64,000 nt of DNA from Oceanobacillus zhaokaii (lineage in GTDB: Bacteria > Bacillota > Bacilli > Bacillales > Amphibacillaceae): the NCBI RefSeq assembly GCF_003352005.1, contig NZ_CP024848.1, positions 443,001 through 507,000 on the forward strand, given 5' to 3'. The stretch's first letter is position 1. Each line of letters opens with the position of its first letter. Below, piece after piece: positions 30,465 to 58,120 of the stretch. The notes beneath the pieces were generated by a model, which saw only the letters and a program-made list of their open reading frames with translations, did no database searches and was not told where the DNA came from. The translations under genes were made by a program, and so were the position numbers.

Positions 30465-30547
30465 GGGAAAGCCTCCTTGTTTTTTTAGTTAGGAAGCTAC
30501 TAGGGGGAATAAAAGAAGGTAGAAGGAAGTAGGTAAACATGTCCCCG
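30465..30547 (-). promoter_or_regulatory. Expression platform of the tenA TPP riboswitch
   Basis: On the reverse strand, CCTACTTCC (30533-30525) can pair with GGAAGTAG of the aptamer's 3' closing strand (near 30551-30558), giving a structure that competes with the aptamer. No strong terminator with a T run is visible before the tenA ribosome site, so the control could act on translation. The mechanism is not settled by eye. Confidence 0.5.
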
Positions 30548-30636
30548 ACTACTTCCCTTCGCTGGAATTACCCAGATCAGGTTCCAAGGGACAAAGGAGT
30601 ATTCCTTATCTCAGCACAATTCGCGCCCCTAGTAGT
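30548..30636 (-). promoter_or_regulatory. TPP riboswitch (thi box) upstream of tenA
   Basis: The reverse strand contains ACTACTAGGGGCGC, then GTGCTGAGATAAGG, then GGAACCTGATCTGGGTAATT, then CCAGCGAAGGGAAGTAGT. These are the conserved thi-box blocks: GGGG..GC, CTGAGA, ACCTGATCTGG.TAAT.CCAGCG.AGGGAA. The first and last blocks pair as P1. Confidence 0.95.
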
Positions 30637-30682
30637 TTCATAAATTAAAGATTCATTTCATATTGTATTTTGCTATTCAGAT

Positions 30683-31485: not shown

Positions 31486-31525
31486 TAAGCTGAGAATAGG
31501 TGGACATTATATGATCGAACATCCG

Positions 31526-31628
31526 ACTACTTCCCTCCGCTGGTATTAACCAGATCAGGTCCATAAGAGTCGGAAAGTGTATACATGCTTCCCTCTCAGC
31601 CCACACAGTTTTGGGCTCCCCTAGCAGT
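31526..31628 (-). promoter_or_regulatory. TPP riboswitch (thi box) upstream of thiW
   Basis: The reverse strand carries ACTGCTAGGGGAGCCC, GGGCTGAGAGGGAAGC, a longer P3a-type arm (TATACACTTTCCGACTC), then GGACCTGATCTGGTTAATAC and CAGCGGAGGGAAGTAGT. All conserved thi-box blocks are present. The P3 side arm is longer than in the tenA copy. Confidence 0.95.
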
Positions 31629-31849
31629 AATATGTATTAAATTATCGCTTACAAATTAAGCATATCAGAAATGATAGAAATTGTCACCCGAAAATTCAAA
31701 ATATAATATGTGTAGAAATATAGTACCAGTTAATAGATTACGCGTCTTCTAAATAGAGAGTTTCGATTGCTAATGTTTATTTAAGAGGATAGGAGGGAAA
31801 AGAGTAATAACCAATTACTAAATTTTAGGAATAAGGAGAGGACGACATC
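31629..31849. other. Divergent promoter region thiW / glycosyltransferase
   Basis: AT-rich sequence holding the reverse promoter of the thiW riboswitch and the forward promoter and leader of the glycosyltransferase gene (GGAGAGGACGACATC before its ATG). No further element was recognised. Confidence 0.4.
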
Positions 31850-50808: not shown

Positions 50809-51603
50809 CTACCCTCGGACTCCGACCTCAATACTACCTTGAACAAGCTTCCTAACTTCCTCATCCTGCCCTTGATTAAATAAATCAACAATTCTACTGC
50901 CAACAATAACACCGTCGCAATGGGCACTAAGCTCCTGTGCCTGCTCAACACTTGAAACACCGAATCCTGCCAGAACAGGAACAGGGCTATTTTCTTTCAA
51001 TACATCTAAATATGCTTTTACATTCTCGTCATGTGTCTGTCTCGCGCCAGTTGTTCCCATTACGGAAACCGCATATAGGAAGCCTTCTGAACGTTTGGCT
51101 ATTTCAATCATTCGCCCTTTCGGACTTGTCATTGCAACTAAGCGGATGAAGGCGATAGAATGCTTCTGTAATAATTCAGCAATCATTTCTTCTTCTTCCA
51201 TTGGTAAATCCGGAATAATAATGCCATCAACACCAGATTTTTCGCAGTCTGCAGCAAACTTTTCCATCCCATAGCTATAAATTGGATTTAAATAGGTCAT
51301 TAAAATAATTGGCACCGGGGAGCTTGACGCTTTAAAATTCCGTAATTGACTGAGTACGGCTTTCAAGCTTGTGCCATTTGCTAATGCGCGTTGTCCTGCT
51401 GCTTGAATCGTTGGTCCATCAGCAATCGGATCCGAGAAAGGAATCCCGAGCTCAACGGCAGCAACTCCGCTTTTTGCTAAAAAATCAATTCTGTCCTCTA
51501 AATTATCGAGACCGCCATCACCAGCCATAATATAAGGGATAAATAATCTCTGTCCTGCTGATTGTTTTTCTTGAAAGCTGTATTCGATTCTTTCTTTACC
51601 CAT
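50809..51603 (-). CDS. trpA: Tryptophan synthase alpha subunit
   Basis: Cleaves indole-3-glycerol phosphate to indole, which is channelled to TrpB. The 264-residue barrel contains LGIPFSDPIADGPTIQAAGQRAL near residue 50 (landmark), with the catalytic Asp of PDLPMEEEEM near residue 130, Glu/Asp residues intact, and the phosphate loop VLAGFGVSSVEQA near residue 210. It starts directly at the trpB stop. Last gene of the trp operon. Confidence 0.95.
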   Translation of the reverse strand: MGKERIEYSFQEKQSAGQRLFIPYIMAGDGGLDNLEDRIDFLAKSGVAAVELGIPFSDPIADGPTIQAAGQRALANGTSLKAVLSQLRNFKASSSPVPIILMTYLNPIYSYGMEKFAADCEKSGVDGIIIPDLPMEEEEMIAELLQKHSIAFIRLVAMTSPKGRMIEIAKRSEGFLYAVSVMGTTGARQTHDENVKAYLDVLKENSPVPVLAGFGVSSVEQAQELSAHCDGVIVGSRIVDLFNQGQDEEVRKLVQGSIEVGVRG

Positions 51604-52800
51604 TTATTTTTCCTCCAATCGATCTTTTACTTGCTCTACATCTTTATCACCGCGTCCAGATAGGCAAATAACCAATGTTTGATTGGCTTCCATTTCCTTT
51701 GCCAGTTTCATAGCGTAAGCAACCGCATGTGCGCTCTCTAATGCTGGAATGATTCCTTCAATCCTAGATAAAGCTTGAAAGGCATCCAATGCTTCTGTGT
51801 CCGTAATTGCAGCATAATGAACCCGACCGGTTTCATTCAAATGGCTATGTTCTGGCCCAACACCAGGGTAATCAAGTCCTGCAGAAATGGAGAATGCCTC
51901 CGTAATTTGTCCGTTTTCATCCTGTAAGAGTTTCGATAGCGTTCCGTGTAAAATGCCTTTCCTTCCTTTTGTAATCGTAGCGGCATGTTGATCCGTATCA
52001 ATCCCAGCCCCAGCAGCTTCGACACCAACTAGTTTCACTGCTTCCTCTTCTATAAATGGATGGAACATGCCAATTGAATTACTGCCACCACCGACACAGG
52101 CAACGATTGAGTCTGGTAGTTTTCCAGTTTGTTCAATAATCTGTTTCTTTGTTTCCTTACCGATTACAGATTGCAAATCACGAACAATCTTCGGAAATGG
52201 ATGTGGTCCAACAGCGGATCCTAAAATATAATGAGTATCGTTCACGTTGCTCGCCCAGTATCGTAGTGCTTCATTCGTTGCATCCTTTAATGTGCCACTT
52301 CCATGAGCGACACTGCGCACTTCTGCTCCTAATAATTCCATGCGGAACACATTCAGTTTTTGTCGGCGAATGTCCTCCTCGCCCATAAATACAATACATT
52401 CGAGACCAAAAAGTGCACATACTGTAGCAGTCGCAACTCCATGCTGGCCTGCGCCGGTTTCAGCGACGACCTTTTTCTTGCCCATTCGAAGTGTCAGTAG
52501 TGCCTGACCTATCGTATTATTAATTTTGTGTGCGCCAGTATGGTTTAGATCTTCACGTTTCAAATAAATATTTGCCCCGCCAACTTCTTTCGTTAACTGT
52601 TCAGCAAAGTATAGAGGCGTTTCCCTGCCCACATATTGCTTCAAATAATAGTTTAATTCCTCGATAAATTGTGGGTCATTCTTAGCCTTTTCATATGCTT
52701 CCTCTAATTCTAGCAGTGCGGGCATCAATAGTTCTGGTACGAATCTTCCTCCAAAACTGCCATATCTTCCGGCCTCGTCGGGCATTGTGTAGGTTGTCAT
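51604..52800 (-). CDS. trpB: Tryptophan synthase beta subunit
   Basis: Condenses indole with serine using PLP, 398 residues. The PLP lysine lies in [13 protein letters not shown] near residue 88, the GAGQHG loop follows near residue 110, the phosphate loop VGGGSNSIG near residue 230, and SGRGDKD lies at the C-terminus. I chose ATG 52800 because AAGGATGAG precedes it. The frame extends to 52812. A 257-bp gap with hairpin repeats separates it from trpF, unusual in an otherwise overlapping operon. Confidence 0.95.
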
Positions 52801-53057
52801 TAATCGTCTCATCCTTTCAATTGATAAGTTAAGAAAGTATAAAATATTTCTTACTACATAAGTGGGGCCTACAGGATGTAGGTCAGTTCGGTGTTGCGAC
52901 AGATGTTTTCGGTGGGACGAGTAATCGGAGTCCCAAAGGTTTTCGTTGGGGCGAGTAACCGCAGTCCCAAATGATTTCGGTGGGACGAGTAACCGCAGTC
53001 CCAGGACGTCCTAGTTTTTAACCGAACATCCCCTAAGGCTGTCACCGAAAAGCTTGG
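52801..53057 (-). other. Gap within the trp operon holding hairpin repeats
   Basis: The other trp genes overlap or abut, but trpF and trpB are separated by 257 bp. The gap contains the three phased 34-bp repeats, a hairpin CTAAGGCT/AGCCTTAG around the trpF stop (53033-53066) and the trpB ribosome site. No open reading frame was recognised. Confidence 0.7.
52907..53008 (-). repeat. Three tandem 34-bp hairpin repeats
   Basis: Units begin TTTCGGTGGGACGAGTAATC (52907), TTTCGTTGGGGCGAGTAACC (52941) and TTTCGGTGGGACGAGTAACC (52975), exactly 34 bp apart. Each contains GGGAC or GGGGC followed by GTCCC, able to form a short hairpin. Confidence 0.88.
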
Positions 53058-53672
53058 CTAAGCCTTAGTTTTATAACCTTTTGCAATTGTAATAAATTGC
53101 TTGATTTTTTTATTATCCTTTATACCATTTGTTTCAACGCCGCTGGAGACATCGACTCCAGCAGGGTGCGCAAGTCTGATTGCTTCTGTTATATTGTCCG
53201 CGTTTAGTCCGCCAGCTAATAATATCTTCTGAGTTGGGATAGAGAGCTGTTCAATCATTCTCCAGTCAAATGTTATCCCGTTTCCTCCATGGTACTCTGC
53301 CTTAGGGCTATCAAGTAAATAATAGTCGCAAGGGTAGGATTTGATAGAACTAACATTTTCCTTAGTTATAGAAAATGCTTTTATGACCTTATATGGCAAT
53401 GACTTAGCGACTTCTGCAGGTTCTTCTCCATGCAGCTGAATATAATCAAGCCCAACAAGTTCTGCGATAGCAATCATATTGTCGACCGTTTCATTTACAA
53501 AAACTCCTACTTTCTTTACAGAAGAGGGGACCAAACGCACGATATCGCTTGCAGCTTCAGGTGAAATTCTGCGCTTGCTTTCGGCAAATACGAAGCCGAT
53601 AAAATCTGCACCAGATGCAAGTACAGCTTCTGCGGCCTCTTTTGTTGAGATTCCACATATTTTTACTAGCAT
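53058..53672 (-). CDS. trpF: Phosphoribosylanthranilate isomerase
   Basis: Isomerises PRA to CdRP, 204 residues, TIM barrel. The catalytic Cys is in KICGIST at residues 4-10, the general acid Asp in DVSSGVETNGIKD near residue 180, with FVFAESKRRISPE and LAGGLNADNI as further landmarks. It begins a few bases after the trpC stop and ends before the repeat-filled gap. Confidence 0.95.
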   Translation of the reverse strand: MLVKICGISTKEAAEAVLASGADFIGFVFAESKRRISPEAASDIVRLVPSSVKKVGVFVNETVDNMIAIAELVGLDYIQLHGEEPAEVAKSLPYKVIKAFSITKENVSSIKSYPCDYYLLDSPKAEYHGGNGITFDWRMIEQLSIPTQKILLAGGLNADNITEAIRLAHPAGVDVSSGVETNGIKDNKKIKQFITIAKGYKTKA

Positions 53673-53674
53673 GA

Positions 53675-54460
53675 TTAATCTCGCTTCTCCGCCAGCAATT
53701 CAACTTTAAGCTCATCAAAGGTCTGAGCCAGGTTGTCTGCGAGCATCAATGTTTCCCCAACTAAAATCGCCTTTGCTCCAGCATCTCTTGCGCGTTTAAC
53801 ATCTGCTACAGTTTTCATACCACTTTCACTGATCAGGATTGTATCTGGATTCGTTACCATTGCAGCAAGCTTTTCAGTAGTATCCAGATTGACTTCGAAC
53901 GTTTTCAAATTTCGATTATTAATGCCAATGATTTCTGGATCTAATTGCAGCGCTGTATTCATTTCTTCCTCGTTATGAACCTCAACCAATACCTCTAGTT
54001 CCAGGCTTCTAGCATAATGATAGAGATTTTCTAAATCCGTTGTTGATAATGCAGCTACGATTAATAGAATAATCGATGCACCAGCAGCCTTTGCCTGATC
54101 TATTTGGATTGGATGAATGATGAAATCCTTACATAATATCGGCAAATCAACAGCCCTTCTAACAGCGCGTAAATCATCCATTGTCCCATTGAAAAAGGGT
54201 TTGTCTGTTAGAACTGAAATGGCGGCTGCACCATTTGCTTCATATTGTTTCGCTTGTGTTACGGGATCGACTGTCATTTTTATTTCGCCCTTTGATGGAG
54301 AAGAACGTTTAATTTCGGAAATAACGGCCATCGTCTTTGCTGCGAGCACACGCTCTTTAAAAGTGGTGATTTTCTTCGTTTCGACTGGTATAAAGGTTTG
54401 ATCGATTAATGCGGTAATTTCTTTTTCTTTTTCAATTAAAATTTTCTCTAAGATAGACAA
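53675..54460 (-). CDS. trpC: Indole-3-glycerol phosphate synthase
   Basis: Closes the indole ring of CdRP, 261 residues, TIM barrel. ISEIKRSSPSKGEI near residue 45 carries the catalytic Lys, LCKDFIIHPIQI near residue 105 the second Lys, and IGINNRNLKTF near residue 175 and SESGMKT near residue 210 the phosphate and Glu/Asn residues. The start is TTG directly after the trpD stop, with GAGGTG upstream. Confidence 0.95.
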   Translation of the reverse strand: MSILEKILIEKEKEITALIDQTFIPVETKKITTFKERVLAAKTMAVISEIKRSSPSKGEIKMTVDPVTQAKQYEANGAAAISVLTDKPFFNGTMDDLRAVRRAVDLPILCKDFIIHPIQIDQAKAAGASIILLIVAALSTTDLENLYHYARSLELEVLVEVHNEEEMNTALQLDPEIIGINNRNLKTFEVNLDTTEKLAAMVTNPDTILISESGMKTVADVKRARDAGAKAILVGETLMLADNLAQTFDELKVELLAEKRD

Positions 54461-55486
54461 TTAAAACACCTCACTTGGAATTCTGCTGCTGTAATTAATT
54501 AGATATTCTAATTTTGCTAATGCTGCTCCAGAATCAATGCTCTCCCGTGCGAGCTCGATACCATCTTCAATTGTTTCGGCCTTACCATTTGCAAATATGC
54601 CAATTCCGGCATTTAAAATAGTTGTATTGTAGTAAGCGCCATTTTTTCCTTTCAGTACACTTAGTAGAATCTCTGCATTTTGATTTGCATTGCCACCACG
54701 AATTTCATCTTTTGAATAATACGGTAAACCAACATCTTCCGGACGCAATGTAAACGAAGTGATCTTCCCATCATCAAGGAGCATAAGCTGGTTTTCTCCT
54801 GCTAGTGTTGCTTCATCAACATTACCAGCACCATTAACGACTACCGCACGTCGTCTGCCTAATTTGTGTAAGGCTTCGGCTAGAATGGGCATTAGCTCCT
54901 GGCGATACACGCCAAGCAGTTGTGAATCAAGGTTTATTGGATTCGTTAATGGACCAATTGCATTGAAGATTGTTGGTATTTTTAATTCCTTGCGTACCTT
55001 TGTGAAAGGCTTCAACGCTACATGTACATTTGGTGCGAAAAGGAAGGCAATCTGATTCTCTAGCAACAGCTCTTCTATTTGCTCCTTAGTAAAAGATAAG
55101 GATACACCTAATTGTTCAAGGACATCTGCACTTCCGGATTTACTTGTAATACTTCGGTTACCGTGTTTTGCTACCGTAACACCCGCACCAGCAAGGACAA
55201 ACGCTGAAGTAGTACTGATATTAAAACTATATGAACGATCTCCGCCAGTTCCACAGTTATCGATTGCACCTGATATGGAGGTTCCTTGAAAGAGAGACTC
55301 ATTGCGGATGACATCAACGATTCCTGTAATTTCATCTGAAGTTTCACCTTTTACTTGCAGGGCAGTTAAAAAAGCAGCAATCTCAGAATCTGTAACTGCA
55401 TCCGTAAAACAGTAATTTACTGCATCCTTCATTTCCTCTGTTGTAAGGTTTTCTTGGTTAATTAATTTTTCCAGATAATTTTTCAT
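54461..55486 (-). CDS. trpD: Anthranilate phosphoribosyltransferase
   Basis: Transfers phosphoribose from PRPP to anthranilate, 341 residues. The glycine-rich IDNCGTGGDRSYSFNIST near residue 75, KHGNRSITSKSGSADVLE near residue 108 and the Mg-binding GAGNVDEATLAG near residue 215 are intact. It overlaps the trpG end by 29 bases. AGGAG precedes the ATG. Confidence 0.95.
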   Translation of the reverse strand: MKNYLEKLINQENLTTEEMKDAVNYCFTDAVTDSEIAAFLTALQVKGETSDEITGIVDVIRNESLFQGTSISGAIDNCGTGGDRSYSFNISTTSAFVLAGAGVTVAKHGNRSITSKSGSADVLEQLGVSLSFTKEQIEELLLENQIAFLFAPNVHVALKPFTKVRKELKIPTIFNAIGPLTNPINLDSQLLGVYRQELMPILAEALHKLGRRRAVVVNGAGNVDEATLAGENQLMLLDDGKITSFTLRPEDVGLPYYSKDEIRGGNANQNAEILLSVLKGKNGAYYNTTILNAGIGIFANGKAETIEDGIELARESIDSGAALAKLEYLINYSSRIPSEVF

Positions 55487-56069
55487 TGGAATTCTCCTCT
55501 CGAATTTTTGCTAAAAAGTTATGAATTAGTTGCTTTCCTGTTGCTGTTCCGATTGACTCGGGATGAAACTGGACACCGAAAACTGGGTACTGTTTATGCC
55601 CGATTGCCATAATCTCATCATCTTCAATTGACTTGGCAATGATATCCAATTCTTCTGGGATTCTCATATCATCGACAACATAAGAGTGATAGCGCATGAC
55701 CTCAACTGGATTCTCCAATCCCTTTAAAATTCCTTGATTGAGATGGGTAATGAGCGATGTTTTTCCATGCTTAATTTCCTTTGCGAGTCGAAGTTCACCT
55801 CCTAATGCCTCGGCAATGACTTGCTGTCCTAAACAAATTCCAAGAATTGGAATGCTTTTATAAAATTCCCGAACCAAGTCTAGACATATCCCTGCTTGAT
55901 TTGGAAGGCCGGGACCAGGTGAGATGATGATTCCCTGTAAATCCATCGCGTCAATTTCTTGTAGTGTTAGTGTGTCATTTCGTACAACAGTTACCTGCTC
56001 AAATTCATCAGCAACATATTGGTAAATGTTGTAAGTGAATGAATCATAGTTATCGACCAGCAGGATCAT
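55458..56069 (-). CDS. trpG: Anthranilate/aminodeoxychorismate synthase glutaminase
   Basis: A 203-residue class-I amidotransferase that supplies ammonia to TrpE. The nucleophile Cys lies in PILGICLGQQVIAEALGG near residue 80, and His/Glu complete the triad in FGVQFHPESIGT near residue 170. GGAGGTGA precedes the ATG, which overlaps the trpE stop by 20 bases. In B. subtilis this subunit (PabA) is in the folate operon and shared with PabB. Here it is inside trp, so a second use in folate synthesis is possible but not shown. Confidence 0.93.
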   Translation of the reverse strand: MILLVDNYDSFTYNIYQYVADEFEQVTVVRNDTLTLQEIDAMDLQGIIISPGPGLPNQAGICLDLVREFYKSIPILGICLGQQVIAEALGGELRLAKEIKHGKTSLITHLNQGILKGLENPVEVMRYHSYVVDDMRIPEELDIIAKSIEDDEIMAIGHKQYPVFGVQFHPESIGTATGKQLIHNFLAKIREENSNEKLSGKIN

Positions 56070-57465
56070 AATCGTTCACCTCCATAATTGATTTTGCTTT
56101 GTTTAACGTTTCTTGATATTCCATTTCGGCTACGGAATCATAAACAATTCCTGCCCCTGCTTGCAGAATAGCCTGATTTTCTTTAATGACGAGTGAGCGA
56201 ATTGCGAGTGCGATGTTTATATCATGATTAAAGTTGATAAACCCAATTCCGCCACCATAAACGCCACGCTTCTTTTCTTCTAACTCATTAATTAATTGCA
56301 TCGCCCGAATCTTCGGTGCACCGGAAACCGTACCAGCTGGTAAACAAGCAATTAGAGCATCGATACTTGATAAATCTTGGCGCAGCACTCCTTTTACCTC
56401 CGAAACGATATGCATGACATGCTGGTATCTTTCTATAGTCATATAGGTTGGAATCGTAATGCTGCCAACCTCGCATACGCGGCCAAGATCATTTCTGCTT
56501 AGATCAACTAGCATACGGTGTTCCGCAATTTCCTTTTCATCTTGAAGTAGCTCTGTTGCAAGCGCCTCATCCTCGGTTTCCGATTTTCCACGTGCCCTCG
56601 TTCCAGCAATTGGATTCGTCACGATTTCTCGTCCTGTCGTTTGTACAAGACTTTCAGGAGAAGCCCCAAGCAGGAGATATGATTCAAAATCAATGTAAAA
56701 CATGTATGGTGATGGATTCGCCTCTCTTAGCTTTTGATAGAATAAGAGAGGATCTCCGTTCATTTCTGCTGATAATCGCTGGGATAAAACAACTTGGAAA
56801 ACATCACCTTGCTTCAAATGCTTCTTCGCTATACTGACATTTTCGAGAAACTTTTCTTCTGTAATTTCCGCTTTGAAGTTAATCGTTGCTTCCTGATGAG
56901 CTGTTGTTTGTTCCGTTGGTCTACTTAATGCTTTCTGCAGCAGATTGATTCGCTCGGCCAATATATTGTCAGCATCTAATCCATGGTGAAGAACGATTAA
57001 ACAGAGTGACTCATCTGCGTGATCAAAGACAATGATATCCTTGTAAACCATGAGATGGATGTCTGGCATGTCGAGGTCATCCGGTAATGTATCGCCGATA
57101 TTCTCATGCAATCGAATAGAGTCATAGCCAATATAGCCAACTGCCCCGCCATAGAATGGAAAGGGAAAATCCAGTTCAATTTTTGGGAGATGTTCTTTTA
57201 CGTAGTTGAGTCCGTGCTGCTGAATTGTTTCTTTTGTTTCCTTCTCATGGTTTATAACTGTTGTTCTATGACCATTTCCAATGATTTCTTGATACGGGTT
57301 TCCCCCAATAAAAGAGAATTTACCTTTTTTCTGATGCTGAAAAGTACTTTCCAATAAGAATTTTTTCTTCCCAGGCAATTGTCTGTAAATTTCAATTGGT
57401 GTCAGTTTGCCTGCATGCTGTTTTATTGATTTGAAGGAGTATTCATGGTTACCATTAATTGACAT
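56050..57465 (-). CDS. trpE: Anthranilate synthase component I
   Basis: Converts chorismate to anthranilate, 471 residues. The N-terminal half includes LLESTFQHQ (from the feedback-binding region LLES) and PFPFYGGAVGYIGYDSIR near residue 108. The C-terminal chorismate site contains NPSPYMFYIDFESYLLLGASPE near residue 250, ATELLQDEKEIAEHRMLVDLSRNDLGRVC near 310 and PAGTVSGAPKIRAM near 395 (landmarks). I chose ATG 57465, 8 bases after AAGGGA. First gene of trpEGDCFBA, behind two T-boxes. Confidence 0.95.
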   Translation of the reverse strand: MSINGNHEYSFKSIKQHAGKLTPIEIYRQLPGKKKFLLESTFQHQKKGKFSFIGGNPYQEIIGNGHRTTVINHEKETKETIQQHGLNYVKEHLPKIELDFPFPFYGGAVGYIGYDSIRLHENIGDTLPDDLDMPDIHLMVYKDIIVFDHADESLCLIVLHHGLDADNILAERINLLQKALSRPTEQTTAHQEATINFKAEITEEKFLENVSIAKKHLKQGDVFQVVLSQRLSAEMNGDPLLFYQKLREANPSPYMFYIDFESYLLLGASPESLVQTTGREIVTNPIAGTRARGKSETEDEALATELLQDEKEIAEHRMLVDLSRNDLGRVCEVGSITIPTYMTIERYQHVMHIVSEVKGVLRQDLSSIDALIACLPAGTVSGAPKIRAMQLINELEEKKRGVYGGGIGFINFNHDINIALAIRSLVIKENQAILQAGAGIVYDSVAEMEYQETLNKAKSIMEVNDYDPAGR

Positions 57466-57489
57466 TTTCTCCATCCCTTCTTTTTCTAA

Positions 57490-57768
57490 ATAAAAAAGTC
57501 CTCTATAAACACATAAGTTATGTGCTTATAGAGGACGATTGGACCGCGGTGCCACCTCTGTTGAAAAGAATTTCTTTTCATCTCATTCAGATACAGGAAA
57601 TTATTCATCCGATATCCTATCCGTATAACGTCGGAACCCCGTGTTTTCTTACTGATCCGGTTGGATTTTTCGGAAAACCTCTCATAAGTCCATTCAGTAA
57701 TTATTCACATACTGGATTCCCACCAACACCAGCTCTCTGTTATGCTTCAAGATTACTTACTTCTCTTA
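57490..57768 (-). promoter_or_regulatory. Trp T-box leader, proximal copy
   Basis: Reverse strand. Stem I starts near 57765, with AGAGAGCTGGTGTTGGTGGG. The specifier region GAATGGACTTATGAG presents UGG (Trp). The antiterminator T-box AGGTGGCACCGCGGTCC lies at 57557-57541, followed by the terminator stem GTCCTCTATAA../..TTATAGAGGAC (57536-57498) and a T run. Uncharged tRNA-Trp should favour read-through into trpE. Confidence 0.94.
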
Positions 57769-57804
57769 ATCATTGATTTAGATTTATTCACTTTTAAATA
57801 AAAA

Positions 57805-58075
57805 GACAAAAAGGCCCCACATCCGAAAAGGACGAGGGACCGTGGTACCACCTTTATTAGCTAAAAAATCAGCTCACTTTAGCAATATCAAGCGAAATGC
57901 TTAATATTCGTCTCGTATAACGATGAGACCTGTTCGCCAAAGCCTACTGAATTATCGTTCGGTTTGGAAGCTCAGAAGCCCATTCATCTAAGTGTTCACA
58001 CTGGTTTGCACCGACCACCAGCTCTCTTTAGTGACTAATTTAGATTACTCTTCTTCGTCATTGCCGTTTACTAAT
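57805..58075 (-). promoter_or_regulatory. Trp T-box leader, distal copy
   Basis: Reverse strand. Stem I holds AGAGAGCTGGTGGTCGGTGC, then AACCAGTGTGAACACTTAGA and the specifier GAATGGGCTTCTGAG with UGG (Trp). The T-box AAGGTGGTACCACGGTCCC lies near 57854-57837 and the terminator GGTCCCTCGTCC/GGATGTGGGGCC plus a T run ends at 57808. It lies immediately upstream of the proximal T-box on the same strand. Confidence 0.94.
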
Positions 58076-58091
58076 TTAATTATTGATACTA

Positions 58092-58120
58092 ATATTAAGA
58101 TAATTCAAAATGGAAGTCAA
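58092..58120 (-). promoter_or_regulatory. Promoter of the trp operon
   Basis: On the reverse strand TTGACT (58120-58115) and TAATAT (58097-58092) are 17 bp apart. The transcript would start near 58085, just before the distal T-box. Confidence 0.7.

Follow-up and report, generated by a model that had tools for sequence, protein, structure and literature searches.

Two unequal tryptophan T-boxes in series precede the trp operon of Oceanobacillus zhaokaii, and TRAP most likely acts on trpP

The stretch of DNA analysed here, 64,000 nucleotides of the Oceanobacillus zhaokaii contig NZ_CP024848.1 and called the window below, carries a trp operon on its minus strand. Ahead of trpE lie two T-box riboswitches in tandem, both of the tryptophan type, and the same genome encodes the protein TRAP and the tryptophan uptake gene trpP. 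The features of the locus, in the order in which they would be transcribed, are as follows.

58092..58120, minus strand: candidate sigma-A promoter, TTGACT-17-TAATAT, 9/12 consensus positions
57825..58070, minus strand: T-box copy 1, Stem I to antiterminator; RF00230, 139.3 bits, E 5.6e-31
57808..57841, minus strand: copy 1 terminator, hairpin 57841-57813, then UUUUU; segment 57849-57809 folds at -19.6 kcal/mol
57528..57782, minus strand: T-box copy 2; RF00230, 130.6 bits, E 1e-28
57492..57536, minus strand: copy 2 terminator, 18-pair hairpin 57536-57498, then UUUUUU; segment 57540-57497 folds at -26.5 kcal/mol
56050..57474, minus strand: trpE, anthranilate synthase component I; TIGR00564, 577.3 bits against a cut-off of 517.7; open reading frame (ORF) start as listed, start codon provisional
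55458..56069, minus strand: trpG, amidotransferase; TIGR00566 over cut-off; 20-base overlap with trpE
54461..55486, minus strand: trpD; TIGR01245 over cut-off
53675..54460, minus strand: trpC; NF001371 over cut-off
53058..53672, minus strand: trpF; NF002300 over cut-off
51604..52812, minus strand: trpB; TIGR00263 over cut-off
50809..51603, minus strand: trpA; TIGR00262 over cut-off

The window was scanned with cmscan against Rfam 15, in which the T-box family RF00230 has a gathering score of 93 bits. Exactly two matches exceeded this score across the 64 kb, both spanning model positions 1-219 on the minus strand. Direct reading of the sequence revealed the AGAGAG Stem I motif in copy 1 as well as copy 2, and the Trp specifier UGG, within GAA-UGG, at 57982-57980 in copy 1 and 57692-57690 in copy 2. 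The T-box core is AGGUGGUACCACG in copy 1, with U57847 as its variable base, and AGGUGGCACCGCG in copy 2, with C57551. Each copy is followed by a hairpin and a U-run, predicted to compete with the antiterminator; a simple terminator scan picked up the copy 2 terminator only, and that of copy 1 was found by folding. Thus, two complete T-boxes lie in the leader ahead of trpE, presumably on a single transcript, and the promoter scan of the region listed no minus-strand promoter-like site between them. The first-pass annotation of this DNA had proposed that the trp operon is preceded by two complete T-boxes of the Trp type, one after the other, and the matches, specifiers, cores and terminators confirm it: two full-length covariance matches were obtained and not one, and no specifier other than UGG was read in either copy.

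A search with a tRNA-Trp pattern gave one match in the genome, with anticodon CCA and the end CCCCTG-CCA, which places G at position 73. The UGG specifiers of both copies therefore agree with the anticodon of the genomic tRNA-Trp as well as with the trp operon downstream. Since the discriminator base is G73, the UGGC of copy 2 would form a Watson-Crick pair with it, and the UGGU of copy 1 would pair with it by wobble only. G73 was found in 38 of 38 tRNA-Trp matches of the relatives described below (32 of 50 genomes matched; position 73 was left free in the pattern).

Is the tandem arrangement unusual? From 138 loci encoding a TrpE relative, 80 trpE loci were kept and all 80 were scanned with Rfam; the closest TrpE relatives found were those of Oceanobacillus species, with 86% identity to O. 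arenosus over the best segment. Two T-box matches were obtained in 77 of the 80 loci (72/75 and 5/5). Among the three single-match loci, a second core was visible by eye in L045 and L070, and none in L064 (Alkalibacterium). Tandem T-box trp operons of Bacillota were reportedly described by Gutierrez-Preciado, Yanofsky and Merino in 2007. According to the parts of Morales and Merino 2025 at hand (PMC12452182), Trp biosynthesis is the pathway most significantly under contiguous-riboswitch control, via tandem T-boxes in Bacillota, and contiguous riboswitches on trpE of Bacillota are T-box T-box in 99% and triple in 1% of cases (Table 2). The trpE operon of Bacillus methanolicus MGA3 also has a tandem T-box, termed characteristic of certain Bacillales in an excerpt of PMC4342826; the genus differs, and that excerpt does not discuss the variable bases. 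The earlier remark that tandem leaders are known for a few amino-acid operons does not hold if it is taken to mean that this leader is rare. The tandem Trp T-box arrangement is of an already known kind and ordinary for its group, and no architectural difference from the Bacillota operons, as far as these sources describe them, was seen. The positional split of variable bases and the coexisting TRAP/trpP module, both described below, are not mentioned in the available portion of PMC12452182.

A few leaders of this set depart from the compact form. The spacer between the T-boxes is long in L022, L047 and L061 (319, 250 and 734 bases by Rfam coordinates) and, by eye, in L045, where it abounds in AG triplets; the spacers of L047 and L061 each contain a Bacillaceae-1 RNA match. 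In Alkalibacterium L064 (3337-3438), a short ORF with three Trp codons (MTNDSFIKLTVQYSWQSWGVDKRAGYWRCAKIE) lies upstream of the lone trp T-box. It has a Shine-Dalgarno sequence and is followed by a hairpin and a T-run, resembling a leader-peptide attenuator stacked on a T-box.

We aligned the copies of 78 pairs (the window and the 77 two-match loci). Within copy 1 and within copy 2, mean identity was 68.4% and 62.4%, respectively; the two copies from the same genome were on average 52.7% identical. In all 156 cases, the closest sequence from another genome was of the same copy type. Thus, judged by their sequences, copy 1 and copy 2 are old, distinct paralogues and not recent duplicates.

The variable base was then counted in 76 leaders (the window and L021-L095; L096-L100 were left out), eight unusual or sub-threshold leaders being settled by eye. 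In order of copy 1/copy 2, 52 of 75 pairs were U/C, 15 C/C, 4 C/U and 4 U/U, and the one single copy had U; the C/U pairs are those of Amphibacillus (L063, L067, L068) and Halolactibacillus (L070). U therefore occurs in copy 1 of 56/75 pairs, as against copy 2 of 8/75. On these counts, the positional skew of the variable base is real in the clade and is not a rule. A universal U/C rule is excluded by the other pair types, here and in the wider sample below, and selection for unlike pairs is rejected as well, the 52 U/C pairs comparing with about 50 expected from the separate copy frequencies. Within the O. zhaokaii genome, the T-box L009, which stands before a gene that we take to be trpS, has C at this base.

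A wider sample comprised 60 class-wide regions upstream of TrpE-like genes, drawn from the 205 of 220 genomes with a match; the genes downstream are presumed to be true trpE. T-boxes were sought with a purpose-built hidden Markov model, which found one in 35 of the 60 regions, and pairs and singles were counted by eye. L141 and L175 were excluded as duplicates, L166 and L191 were classed on partial matches and L142 on a split second copy, and L168, with one partial match, was placed in no class.

TRAP is encoded outside the window, at G000:C1:2095310-2095510 (PF02081, 132.4 bits against a cut-off of 21.3, E 1.9e-38), between ORFs that we take to be hbs and a heptaprenyl-diphosphate/menaquinone gene. 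The trp leader of the window carried no TRAP-like chain of more than two (G/U)AG triplets; its score of 1.5 was reached by 497 of 500 shuffles. A TRAP site in this leader was rejected on the triplet scan, and with it the triplet chain that marks a TRAP-regulated trp operon of the B. subtilis type. The first-pass annotation had set this lineage apart on the ground that B. subtilis uses TRAP instead. That contrast fails as worded, because this genome encodes TRAP, as do 35 of 50 relatives (chosen among the 80 to spread over genera), and all 50 have at least one T-box before trpE. What differs from B. subtilis seems to be the target of TRAP and not its presence. In the portion of PMC11255114 at hand, TRAP of B. 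subtilis controls trp, trpG, trpP and ycbK. Both organisms have TRAP and, across the ribosome-binding site of trpP, a TRAP-like site, whereas here the trp operon has T-boxes, lacks such a site and includes trpG. A figure legend in PMC2494555 sets TRAP presence beside T-box status, and hence the coexistence of TRAP and T-boxes may not in itself be new.

The leader of the genome's trpP (PF17099) has six triplets over the Shine-Dalgarno region and start, with a score of 5.0 that was reached by 0 of 2000 shuffles, suggesting a TRAP binding site. Thirty trpP leaders were read, of which L132 had no ORF; in 24 of 29 loci the score was reached by at most 5 of 500 shuffles. The five weaker leaders were L111, L137, L113, L135 and L119 (6, 7, 10, 24 and 95 shuffles of 500, respectively). 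TrpP was found in 35 of the 50 surveyed relatives, and the same 15 lack both TrpP and TRAP. In Lentibacillus halodurans (G009, C12:70605-71064), the trpP match is in three adjoining pieces and the gene is possibly broken; TRAP is in one piece.

Upstream of the triplets, a hairpin was found in 30 of 30 trpP leaders examined; in this genome (L103) it lies at G000:C1:1437642-1437675 on the minus strand, and it was seen across leaders L103, L109-L138 and L199-L295. It has a UUCG-like start, a stem of six pairs, a stem of three pairs and a loop of 4-6 bases near AUGAG, with one bulged A between the two stems on the 3' side. All 9 pairs are formed in 24 of the 30 leaders, and 7 or 8 in the remainder. 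The hairpin covaries strongly. In an alignment of 29 distinct rows, 97.3% of cells pair, as compared to 69.9% after shuffling; 75 cells have changes on both sides (18.3 in shuffles), and covariation scores 0.802, where shuffling gives 0.248 and sliding at most 0.141. The number of further pair types (18, with 16.4 in shuffles; 118 of 500 shuffles) was not unusual, and that of doubly changed pairs (8, with 6.0 in shuffles; 28 of 500 shuffles) only mildly so.

A covariance model of the hairpin had 100 matches at E <=0.01, spread over 98 of the 199 genomes of the order that were searched: 96 genomes have one match each and two genomes have two each. This genome has a single match. The 199 genomes overlap the species used to build the model, this one included, so that the recall is not independent and the specificity is the informative part. 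TrpP follows 96 of the 100 matches; the four matches without TrpP score 23.7-25.6 bits, a range in which three matches do precede TrpP. In the 100 bases after each of the 96 trpP hairpins lay a triplet chain whose score no more than 10 of 200 shuffles reached; for 90 of them, no more than 2 did. The best match of the model in 47 other sources, including the window, had E 1.9. No Rfam match overlapped the hairpin in 19 trpP loci at a permissive threshold or in L103 at the gathering threshold (Rfam 15). According to the title of a paper cited in PMC3913778, TRAP contacts a 5' stem-loop in the trp leader of B. subtilis, and the resemblance of the trpP hairpin to that stem-loop is a lead from position only. 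No prior mention of the trpP hairpin was seen in literature listings or in the consulted parts of PMC11255114, PMC3913778 and PMC4347634, a partial literature search outside which the primary trpP papers (Sarsero 2000, Yakhnin 2004) lie.

Taken together, we read the locus, with a probability of about 90%, as an ordinary, ancient pair of transcriptional Trp T-boxes in series with unequal copies, in a genome whose TRAP most likely acts on the uptake gene trpP. Binding, termination, sensitivity and regulation are all deduced here from sequence. Uncharged tRNA-Trp would bind each T-box through its anticodon CCA at the UGG specifier and its acceptor GCCA at the UGGN bulge. Once bound, it would stabilise the antiterminator and let RNA polymerase pass, an effect that charged tRNA-Trp would not have. 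Two sequential termination decisions are probable, and since trpE would be reached only past both terminators, read-through would be roughly the product of the two. As the U of copy 1 would give a G-U pair weaker than the pair of C with G73 in copy 2, copy 1 is probably the less sensitive gate. Synthesis would then follow tRNA charging, and uptake, through TRAP on trpP, would follow free tryptophan.

Several observations weigh against this reading. The promoter is one: the TTGACT-17-TAATAT sequence pointed out earlier is indeed present at 58120-58092, but it is weak as evidence, as 8 promoter-like sites occur in the region against 3.2 (standard deviation 1.7) in shuffles. The U/C split is not universal, 15 C/C, 4 C/U and 4 U/U pairs standing among the 75, and the 14 pairs of the wider sample were 7 U/C, 5 C/C and 2 C/U. 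Its 18 full-length single T-boxes had U in 7 and C in 11. The state of the copy 1 base is inherited, with 7 changes among 49 species on the TrpE tree (in which the row of L052 is short, 181 residues), and hence the 75 loci are not 75 trials. In the trpP leader, 4 of the 6 triplets lie in or beside the purine-rich Shine-Dalgarno sequence, which any such scan favours; this sequence, GAGGAGAG, itself contributes triplets. As for TRAP and TrpP, their shared pattern needs 6 changes on the best TrpE tree, only 2 independent pairs being on strongly supported branches, too few for significance. The co-occurrence is therefore suggestive and not significant, and its value as independent evidence is weakened.

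The alternative that survives best takes the two T-boxes for equal sensors, whose arrangement in series only steepens the dose response ('pseudo-cooperative'), with the U/C difference as neutral drift. We consider this a real possibility, if a somewhat less than even one. The available text of PMC9481103 leads one to expect a steeper response from similarly sensitive switches in series, and our leader resembles its pseudo-cooperative tandem riboswitches in having two independent switches for one ligand; here a tRNA is sensed, and the base that would pair with its discriminator is not the same in both copies. Wobble is evidently tolerated, since TBDB has U opposite G73 in 46% of Trp T-boxes, which the part of PMC7778990 at hand notes as an exception and does not tie to tandem position. 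C/C and U/U pairs also occur, and each pair type is found about as often as expected from the base frequencies of either copy taken separately. Against equal sensors stands the strong positional skew of U (56/75 against 8/75), although this is largely inherited. The first-pass annotation had proposed an AND-type gate; the two sequential decisions of that proposal are retained as probable, whereas the difference between the copies in pairing with the discriminator base makes a plain gate of equal sensors doubtful. With the wobble in copy 1, the sensitivities may differ, giving one strict and one permissive gate.

It is much less likely that a single copy functions, the other being a relic or spacer. 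Single full-length T-boxes do precede TrpE-like genes of other Bacilli in 18 of the 60 regions, but here specifier, T-box and terminator are kept in both copies, each copy's identity is kept across genera, and L064 alone of the 80 loci lacks a second copy (L045 and L070 read by eye). Least likely of all, if by a small step, is a three-input leader in which TRAP also regulates this trp operon: TRAP is present in the genome, the stretch from T-box 2 to trpE contains 8 triplets in Jeotgalibacillus soli L082 (0/200 shuffles) and four other Jeotgalibacillus loci score 4.0-4.5 there (4-7/200 shuffles), but the leader of the window has no chain of more than two triplets and, of the 80 related trp leaders, L082 alone was reached by at most 2/200 shuffles. 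The trp leaders of L061, L064 and L045 score 4.0 (7-9/200 shuffles), level with the four non-soli Jeotgalibacillus loci. The Jeotgalibacillus trp leaders (L082 from 3928; L087, L090, L092 and L098) thus combine tandem T-boxes with a TRAP-like site near the trpE start, a site that is strong by the triplet scan in L082 only.

Downstream of the leader, NCBIfam gave the gene order trpE, G, D, C, F, B, A. Searching the genome with trpG turned up no second gene close to it (the next match has 30% identity, E 1.1e-15), so that Trp and folate synthesis may share a single amidotransferase. T-box matches number 20 in the whole genome, 17 of them over the cut-off. L008, L011 and L018, the last below the cut-off, stand before genes that by eye are neither synthetases nor biosynthesis enzymes, presumably a SAM-hydroxide-transferase-like ORF, an MFS-type transporter and an antiporter-like ORF, respectively. 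In the window, cmscan also found two TPP riboswitches on the minus strand (30537-30640 and 31515-31632), about 0.9 kb apart.

For the tandem-T-box Bacillaceae at large, we lean slightly towards a picture in which TRAP is mostly off trp and, retained and lost jointly with TrpP as an uptake module, works on the triplet site and hairpin of the trpP leader, and in which U or C opposite G73 sets different thresholds for the two T-boxes; as a role of TRAP, acting on trpP may then be older or more basic than acting on trp. Unequal gating by copy 1 and copy 2 becomes directly testable, and some of the 46% of Trp T-boxes with U opposite G73 in TBDB may be copy 1 of tandem pairs. The trpP hairpin, conserved and free of Rfam 15 overlap in the loci searched, can be probed in B. 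subtilis. The value of the finding lies in the unequal copies and in a TRAP that apparently serves Trp uptake in a T-box lineage. TRAP, the textbook regulator of the trp operon, occurs where trp leaders mostly have no TRAP-like site, which raises the question of what TRAP evolved for.
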